DNA of 37,047 bases, from the NCBI GenBank assembly GCA_944332155.1, contig CALVJM010000003.1, positions 1 through 37,047 on the forward strand, in the 5' to 3' direction. The notes beneath the pieces were generated by a model. That model was given only the letters and a program-made list of their open reading frames with translations. It was not told the DNA's origin and searched no databases. Positions 6,619 through 8,081 of this stretch are shown piece after piece. Within the stretch, counting starts at the first letter, position 1, and the number at the start of each line of letters is the position of its first letter. This DNA is from an uncultured Bacilli bacterium. Its GTDB lineage: Bacteria; Bacillota_I; Bacilli_A; RF39; UBA660. The position numbers were made by a program, and so were the translations under genes.

Positions 6619-6627
6619 GGGGGGGGG
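6619..6627. repeat. G9 homopolymer tract upstream of a promoter
   Basis: Nine consecutive G residues lie 9 bases before the -35 box of the next gene. Such a run stands out in DNA of about 30% GC. Homopolymer runs slip during replication, so it is a candidate phase-variation or expression-tuning tract. Confidence 0.9.
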
Positions 6628-6658
6628 TATATGAGATTGACAATCATATACTCTTTTT
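6627..6658 (+). terminator. Hairpin with T run, overlapping a promoter
   Basis: GTATATGA (6627-6634) pairs perfectly with TCATATAC (6644-6651), followed by TCTTTTT. It can serve as the uppP terminator. Its loop contains the TTGACA -35 box of the next gene, so it could also act as an operator. Confidence 0.55.
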
Positions 6659-6666
6659 AGTATAAT
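6637..6666 (+). promoter_or_regulatory. Near-consensus sigma-A promoter for the surface protein gene
   Basis: TTGACA at 6637-6642 and TATAAT at 6661-6666 are both perfect, with an 18-base spacer. The start codon at 6716 lies 50 bases past the -10 box. It is among the best promoters in the window. Confidence 0.85.
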
Positions 6667-6715: not shown

Positions 6716-8020
6716 ATGCGAACACGTCAAAAACAAAGAATCGTTATAGGAGTATTATGTTCAGTCATTATCGGACTTGCAGTAGGATATGCTGTATTAA
6801 GCCAACAATTGAACATTCAAGGAACAGGTAGTATTACATCTGATTTTAGTATTGTATTTACTAATATTGAAGAAATTAACCAAGTTCCAGAAAATGGAGA
6901 TTATAATGATTTTGACAATGGGGTTTTAGGCTCTATGGGGATAACAACCCATGATATAACAACCCTTCAAGCTGATGTGACCAATGACCATCAAATAGAC
7001 TTAAATGTTGACATGAAAAAACCAGGAGCTACTGGAATATACGAAATAACAGTAGAAAACACTGGTAAGTTAGATGGATATATTAGTGACATTACAGGAT
7101 TGGATGAAGCTAATGCTTCGGAACCAACAGATATTCGATTTATGTTATTTAATTTTAAAGAAAATCAAAAAATAAGAGTAGGAGAAGAAAAGAAGTTTAT
7201 ACTTATTGTATCATGGAATGAAGATGCGACAACAATTCCACAAACAAATAAGAGCTTAACCTTAGATTTAACAGTAACGCAATATTCAGAACAAGAACAA
7301 GATCGACCAGACATACCAGAACCTAGTGGTAAAACAGATTATGCTGTAGGGGATGAAGTATACTTTGATCCAGTTAAAGGCCAAAGGTGTTATAGTGATG
7401 AAGCATGGACATTAGATGATAAGAGTAGAACTTGTTACAAATGGAATGTGATAAAGGCAAGTGATTCATCAAAAGACACTGTTGAATTATTATTAGACCA
7501 TGATCTTCCAGGAGATACTGCATGGATAAGCTTAGAAGATTATAAAGAAGCAGGCGGAACAGAAGGAGTATATAATAATAACTACGGACCAATTACCGCT
7601 TTAAAACACTTAAAGAATATGACAGACAGTTGGAATGGAGTTGTAACATTAACGAGTGCCGATAATGTAACAAGACAAAATGGAAGTGGTGGCGATTATA
7701 CCATTGATTATAATGGATATAAAGCAAGACTGATTAGTGGACAAGAGATTGCTGATATTGCTGGGAATAATGAATGGACACAAGGTAGTGGCTCTATAGA
7801 AGGACTACCAACATGGGTTTATAGTAATATGGCAATGAATGGTATTTCGGATATTGATGTTTATGAACATTTTGTATATTGGACTGATTCAGCGCATACT
7901 TGGGCTAGTGGTGGTGCGTGGAGCGTGTTCGTTGGTGGAATTTTTGACAACAACGACGTGTCGAACGCAAGCGGCTATGGAGTTCGCCCCGTTGTTAGAA
8001 TTATGAAGTCTAATCTCTAG
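6716..8020 (+). CDS. Membrane-anchored surface protein, TasA/camelysin-like N-terminus, GVRPVV C-terminus
   Basis: A basic N-terminus (MRTRQKQR) is followed by a hydrophobic helix at about residues 9-28 and then SQQLNIQGTGSI. This layout resembles TasA/camelysin-type exported proteins of Bacillota. Residues 30-195 look like a beta-sandwich. A Pro-rich linker follows (about 198-206), then a C-terminal domain with two cysteines (GQRCYSDEAW, SRTCYKW) ending in YGVRPVVRI. That ending recalls C-type-lectin-like or DUF6273-like domains, but I assign no function. The last 110 bases of the gene are about 54% GC against roughly 30% elsewhere. The Shine-Dalgarno sequence is weak (GATGAG) although the promoter is strong. 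It is transcribed alone, with a clear terminator after it. Confidence 0.75.
   Translation: MRTRQKQRIVIGVLCSVIIGLAVGYAVLSQQLNIQGTGSITSDFSIVFTNIEEINQVPENGDYNDFDNGVLGSMGITTHDITTLQADVTNDHQIDLNVDMKKPGATGIYEITVENTGKLDGYISDITGLDEANASEPTDIRFMLFNFKENQKIRVGEEKKFILIVSWNEDATTIPQTNKSLTLDLTVTQYSEQEQDRPDIPEPSGKTDYAVGDEVYFDPVKGQRCYSDEAWTLDDKSRTCYKWNVIKASDSSKDTVELLLDHDLPGDTAWISLEDYKEAGGTEGVYNNNYGPITALKHLKNMTDSWNGVVTLTSADNVTRQNGSGGDYTIDYNGYKARLISGQEIADIAGNNEWTQGSGSIEGLPTWVYSNMAMNGISDIDVYEHFVYWTDSAHTWASGGAWSVFVGGIFDNNDVSNASGYGVRPVVRIMKSNL
7891..8000 (+). other. GC-rich 3' segment of the surface gene, candidate variable region
   Basis: By hand count, 59 of 110 bases are G or C. The encoded pattern is W-S-V, three residues, G, six residues, V-S, then G-Y-G-V-R-P-V-V. 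The intervening codons are rich in NNC (TTC, GAC, AAC, AAC, GAC, AAC, AGC). This composition and position resemble variable regions of diversity-generating retroelement targets. No reverse transcriptase or template repeat is present in the window. Confidence 0.45.
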
Positions 8021-8054: not shown

Positions 8055-8081
8055 GAATAAGTGAAAACTTATTCTTTTTTT
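8055..8081 (+). terminator. Rho-independent terminator
   Basis: GAATAAG (8055-8061) and CTTATTC (8068-8074) form a perfect 7-bp stem followed by seven T residues. It closes the surface protein gene. Confidence 0.9.

Follow-up and report, generated by a model that had tools for sequence, protein, structure and literature searches.

The variable region (VR) of diversity-generating retroelement (DGR) targets usually lies at the C terminus (PMC8144416), and cellular targets on membrane-anchored proteins combine a VR at the extreme C terminus with an N-terminal anchor, a conserved scaffold, and a predicted surface location (PMC8144416). The surface-protein gene described here shares these four features but differs in that no template pairs with its VR and in that its C-terminal domain is DUF6273-like, with a weakly supported C-type-lectin nature. 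A second parallel is provided by the left-over remote targets of Treponema denticola (isolate SP32 and DGR-less isolates; PMC4891356), whose VRs, like ours, mismatch the current template of the genome. These targets sit in genomes from which one DGR type has disappeared or in which a different type is present, and the extra targets match a template type that the isolate no longer has (PMC4891356). There, however, the missing template has been identified in other isolates, and most of its differences from the left-over VR are at adenines (PMC4891356), whereas for our gene the only known template with the same scaffold comes from another species, and the non-A positions have drifted. DGR searches usually seek template/target pairs, often near the reverse transcriptase (RT), and targets without a template are easily missed; our literature search on RF39 together with DGRs found no report. 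We consider it likely that the region from 7891 to 8000 is the VR of a former DGR target whose template has been lost or replaced.

Layout and composition of the surface-protein gene

The window, that is, the whole stretch of 37,047 nucleotides analyzed here, is contig C3 of genome G000 (1.2 Mb in 111 contigs, 93% complete), the nearest named relative of which is Candidatus Pelethosoma merdigallinarum (Mycoplasmatota). We compared it with two genomes of the same genus, G001 and G002, and also used G010, taking one genome per species. The gene is flanked by a BacA-type gene on one side and a ComEA/ComEC-like pair on the other, and its product consists of an N-terminal membrane anchor or signal segment (a hydrophobic N terminus, as judged by eye), a middle part, and a C-terminal DUF6273-like domain that ends in the VR (Table 1).

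Table 1. Features of the surface-protein gene and its flanks, in window coordinates
Feature	Position	Strand	Basis
G9 tract	6619..6627	+	directly 5' of promoter; common to paralogues
Inverted repeat TATATGA-n9-TCATATA, operator-like, covering the -35 element	6628..6650	+	sequence; paralogues
Sigma-70-type promoter TTGACA-n18-TATAAT	6637..6666	+	sequence
Surface-protein gene, 434 aa	6716..8020	+	ORF and translation; homologues in own genome and relatives
C-terminal domain, DUF6273/DUF1566-like fold	7301..8017	+	structure prediction; BFVD and PDB matches
VR, variable codons interleaved with fixed scaffold codons (AW.V...G......V)	7895..7978	+	codon alignment of paralogues and relatives; position-specific divergence
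Fixed 3' scaffold GVRPVV	7979..7996	+	kept in paralogues; up to GVRP in relatives' templates
Hairpin GAATAAGT-GAAA-ACTTATTC, then T run	8055..8081	+	inverted-repeat scan

In some DGRs, target recognition requires the IMH together with a downstream hairpin. An IMH-like 3' boundary would lie at the GVRPVV segment, and a hairpin with a GAAA loop (8055 to 8074) is found about 60 bp further downstream. We considered this hairpin as a DGR recognition element, but the T run that comes after it makes it read as an intrinsic terminator.

The 3' end of the gene had been picked out in a sequence-only reading as GC rich (about 54%), and the composition bears this out: the segment from 7891 to 8000 has 53.6% GC and 20% A, against a mean of 29.3% GC (standard deviation, 5.6) over all 110-bp segments of the 37 kb, and only 14 of 36,937 overlapping segments reach 53.6% or more. 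It belongs to a GC cluster (7871 to 8017) that peaks at 55.5%, the highest value in the window, while the part of the gene upstream of this tail has 34% GC and 39% A. The fixed residues named in the same reading (AW-S-V, G, V-S, and G-Y-G-V-R-P-V-V) are present in the translation as claimed. Its description of the intervening residues as coded largely by NNC codons was right about the enrichment, with third-position C rising threefold in the C-terminal codons (9% to 26%) and A at the same position dropping from 43% to 12%, but “largely” was an overstatement; T is the commonest third base there (40%), and NNY fits better.

Divergence among paralogues

The scaffold AW.V...G......V......GVRPVV is common to the paralogues and to the homologues in relatives. 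Among the paralogues of G000, whose whole proteins are about 82% identical, most residues between the scaffold positions differ, and the variable codons of the VR differ between nearly all copies. First and second codon positions diverge about five times more in the VR than upstream. For the window gene this amounts to 26/56 positions in the VR versus 37/396 upstream when compared with the paralogue on contig C98 (P = 1e-10) and to 31/54 versus 39/396 when compared with that on C57 (P = 1e-14). The comparison of C98 with C57 gave 28/54 versus 36/406, and that of two G001 copies (C26 and C4) gave 24/56 versus 34/402. The replacement excess of the window gene is confined to the C-terminal region with its fixed scaffold, so that the excess of nonsynonymous change anticipated for the variable codons is strong at positions 1 and 2 in the comparison of paralogues.

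Third positions behave differently from what fresh copies of one template would show, since these should agree at third positions (C or T in AAY) whatever their flanks do. Two VR modules within one G001 protein obey this rule, with 19 of 48 first and second positions differing but only 1 of 24 third positions, and hence look like fresh copies of one template. The protein in question (contig C7, L061) is at least 881 residues long and has the two DGR-type VR modules one after the other, in tandem, although G001 yielded a single RT, which is broken by 6 stops. In G000, the window gene differs from C98 at 8/28 third positions in the VR versus 47/198 in the rest of the gene and from C57 at 12/27 versus 40/198, while C98 and C57 differ at 13/27 in the VR, at least the upstream level. 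Because VR third positions thus differ as much as or more than those upstream, it is probable that no common template has overwritten the VRs of this family in G000 since the copies diverged. Further copies of the family are pseudogenes or remnants (C30, C38, C46, and C55). Taken together, third-position drift, pseudogene and remnant copies, and the broken RT of G001 favor an orphaned target.

Such a third-position clock separates freshly written copies, as in the G001 modules, from frozen ones, as in the window gene, and would make DGR gain and loss testable in small-genome gut bacteria. The window gene also suggests a signature by which orphaned targets might be recognized: a GC-rich, A-poor C-terminal patch, a GVRP scaffold, and an excess of change at the first two codon positions while the third is unremarkable.

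DGRs in the same genome and in relatives

The sequence-only reading had noted that the window holds neither an RT nor a template repeat and had predicted an RT elsewhere in the genome. Both points held up: a DNA search gave no second copy in the window, and the only RT in the assembly (PF00078/RVT_1 profile search, over the Pfam cut-off) lies on contig C96, next to an Avd gene and a template (TR). This RT carries the motifs IGNETSQ and YMDD; SQ in motif 4 has been described as nearly confined to DGR RTs, and YxDD has also been described for them (PMC3521204). In tblastn, its matches, none of which reaches 60% identity, include records of Bordetella and other phages. Contig C96 starts inside a target gene and is ordered as target-gene end (RPVINL..TMQDPYVIE), TR, MutS-I-like open reading frame (ORF), Avd, membrane-type ORF, and RT. 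The Avd, the only one in the G000 assembly, scores 40.2 against a cut-off of 40 with PF22296 (bAvd; annotated ORF) and matches NF033474 (DivGenRetAVD) with an E value of 4e-11, below the cut-off of that profile. The small ORF between TR and Avd resembles MutS domain I (L008 511-939; Pfam MutS_I, E value of 1e-7). At the equivalent place, the DGR of G002 has an ORF that is about as long and begins similarly (L086 3409-3810).

Searching the genome at the DNA level with the C96 TR retrieved targets on contigs C5 and C13. Over 105 bp, 15 of the 26 adenines of the TR but 2 of its 79 non-A positions are changed in C5; the corresponding figures for C13 are 13/26 and 7/79. Because the changes concentrate at TR adenines, the C96 element is a DGR whose targets, changed specifically at adenines, lie elsewhere in the genome. 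It has in common with the window gene the genome, a scaffold ending in GVRP, and a location of its targets away from the RT; it differs in its template type, EFNVSSAGELTNTNVNDGNGVRP, and in its target family, which ends in ...TGTGTMQDPYVIE. The end of contig C46 (L012 4480-4798) holds a surface-protein gene reduced by deletion to a remnant, with a 5' leader fused to a 3' tail, and it shares its last approximately 80 bases with the end of C96 (L008 3019-3105).

A template with the scaffold of the window family is found in the congener G002, in a cassette ordered as target, TR, MutS-I-like-sized ORF, Avd, and RT. This TR reads ASNAWNVNNDGNANNNSVSNANGVRP, and the target beside it has an N-terminal anchor of the same kind as the window gene. 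The two are not a clean pair, as they show many non-A differences, with no match within 8 non-A differences. G010 holds another template with the same scaffold, NNAWNVNYNGNLNNNNVDNTNNGVRP. Templates in this group are A rich (25 to 37% A in the stretches compared) and lower in GC than their targets, which are A poor; the C96 TR stretch, for example, has 51% GC and its VR on C5 60%. A GC-rich, A-poor tail is thus explained by templates with A-rich AAY codons, the adenines of which are randomized in the targets.

Origin of the variable region

If the window VR had been written recently, a near-identical second copy of the segment from 7891 to 8000 that differs only at adenines might be expected, but no such copy was found in the assembly. 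A DNA search of G000 with the window VR returned the paralogues on C98 and C57 and the pseudogene on C30 but no template, and a genus search with the template pattern TGGAAY-GTN-AAY gave no match in G000 or G001 and two exact matches in G002, one being its DGR template (C77) and the other lying on C16. An A-tolerant scan of selected loci for a template of the window VR detected nothing beyond the pseudogene on C30 and A-rich stretches of low complexity. A template with 15 to 20 changed adenines per 100 bp would resemble the C5 and C13 pairs and be easily found by DNA search, so its absence can be taken as firm for the 93%-complete assembly, though not for the organism. One candidate came from G001, downstream of the target gene on C26, but this stretch includes a target gene's coding tail and was read as a truncated target. 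The truncated 3' end (L084 830-1190) follows a complete target gene, and by eye about 28 bases at its VR start differ from the neighbor only where the truncated copy has A, as expected of a nearly unmutated copy.

From the pattern of divergence, and not from a template pair, we infer past DGR action on the window gene. A template RNA with a scaffold approximating ..NAWNVNNNGN(L/A)NNNNVSNAN..GVRP.. would have been reverse transcribed with errors at adenines, and the mutated copy pasted over the 3' end of genes of the surface-protein family, randomizing AAY codons on a fixed fold. After such retrohoming, the template of the window family would have been lost from the species or replaced by the different C96 template, which serves other genes, and the window VR would since have accumulated ordinary mutations and may in addition have exchanged sequence with paralogues through gene conversion. 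The protein would be held in the membrane by its N terminus, with the DUF6273-like domain and the VR loops facing outward to bind a ligand at the cell surface; the scaffold strands would maintain the fold, with the binding face made up of what were once AAY codons.

Strong selection for diversity in a surface loop could also raise divergence at positions 1 and 2, and it is conceivable that such selection, together with conversion among paralogues, made the gene end diverse without its ever having been a DGR target. We regard this as rather unlikely. The lack of a template in the assembly would fit, as would the last 62 bp of the gene, which are 92% identical to the C30 pseudogene while the first half of the VR is strongly different, a mosaic of the kind that conversion would make; the gene conversion proposed in the sequence-only reading may therefore still have contributed to the 3' end. 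However, at every scaffold residue the gene agrees with DGR templates and targets within the genus and family, and DGRs are present in the same genome and genus. Selection alone, moreover, does not account for a GC-rich, A-poor patch within an AT-rich gene, whereas an A-randomized AAY template would lead one to expect it.

It is likewise unlikely, in our estimation, that the VR is still being rewritten, be it by a second DGR or by a second template working in trans with the C96 RT, and that this component is missing from the assembly. Template/target repeats do break assemblies, this one is incomplete and in many contigs with C96 beginning within a target gene, and one RT can serve several targets, as seen for C5 and C13. 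Yet the assembly has a single RT and a single Avd, and the VR third positions, which would have been reset had one template overwritten the region recently, have drifted at least as far as the rest of the gene. The window copy also carries changes that adenine mutation does not explain, one example being TTT in place of the TTG of most copies.

Diversification of the window gene in trans by the C96 element, with the template it has now, is highly improbable: in spite of the shared genome, the same general scaffold, and the remote action on C5 and C13, alignment of this TR with the window VR needs gaps and leaves 21 of 66 aligned non-A positions different (about one-third, far from the proportions in the two real targets), which rules it out as the template and speaks against the action in trans that had been suggested, at least for this TR.

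Predicted fold of the C-terminal domain

Searches of the full window protein against Pfam and NCBIfam gave nothing useful; by sequence, DUF6273 was recognized in only 2 of 10 family members, and profile searching against the sequences of solved structures produced a single match, with an E value of 0.47. The structure model of residues 196 to 434 is confident, with a pLDDT of 88. Among its best matches in BFVD, which holds viral structures, DUF6273 is the commonest named kind, with DUF1566 phage proteins further down. The best PDB match is 9qa6, an IgA peptidase of Thomasclavelia ramosa (E value of 1.2e-3; TMq of 0.50). C-type lectins among solved structures match only at E values above 2, lectins and EgtB together falling in a range of about 1 to 5. 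A lectin-like fold of the domain is plausible.

Shared promoter block

It is tempting to speculate that surface variation in gut Mycoplasmatota has two layers, in which a promoter with a G9 tract and inverted repeat would switch dispersed surface proteins while DGRs with swapped templates would rewrite their C-terminal loops, orphaned targets, still functional, then forming a frozen repertoire exchanged by gene conversion; we consider this scheme improbable as it stands. Apart from the G9 tract upstream of the window gene, no run of G in the window reaches 7 bases. The block of G tract, promoter, and inverted repeat also occurs 5' of the paralogues on C98 and C57 (both G9) and C30 (G7), and G001 has seven such sites, each by its coordinates 5' of a gene with the same type of anchor. 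The sequence would allow for possible expression switching by G-tract length, and the tract is 9 bases long at nearly all sites. An ORF on C16 of G002 (L095 2-1159), close to the end of a DGR-type target, resembles by eye a type I signal peptidase.
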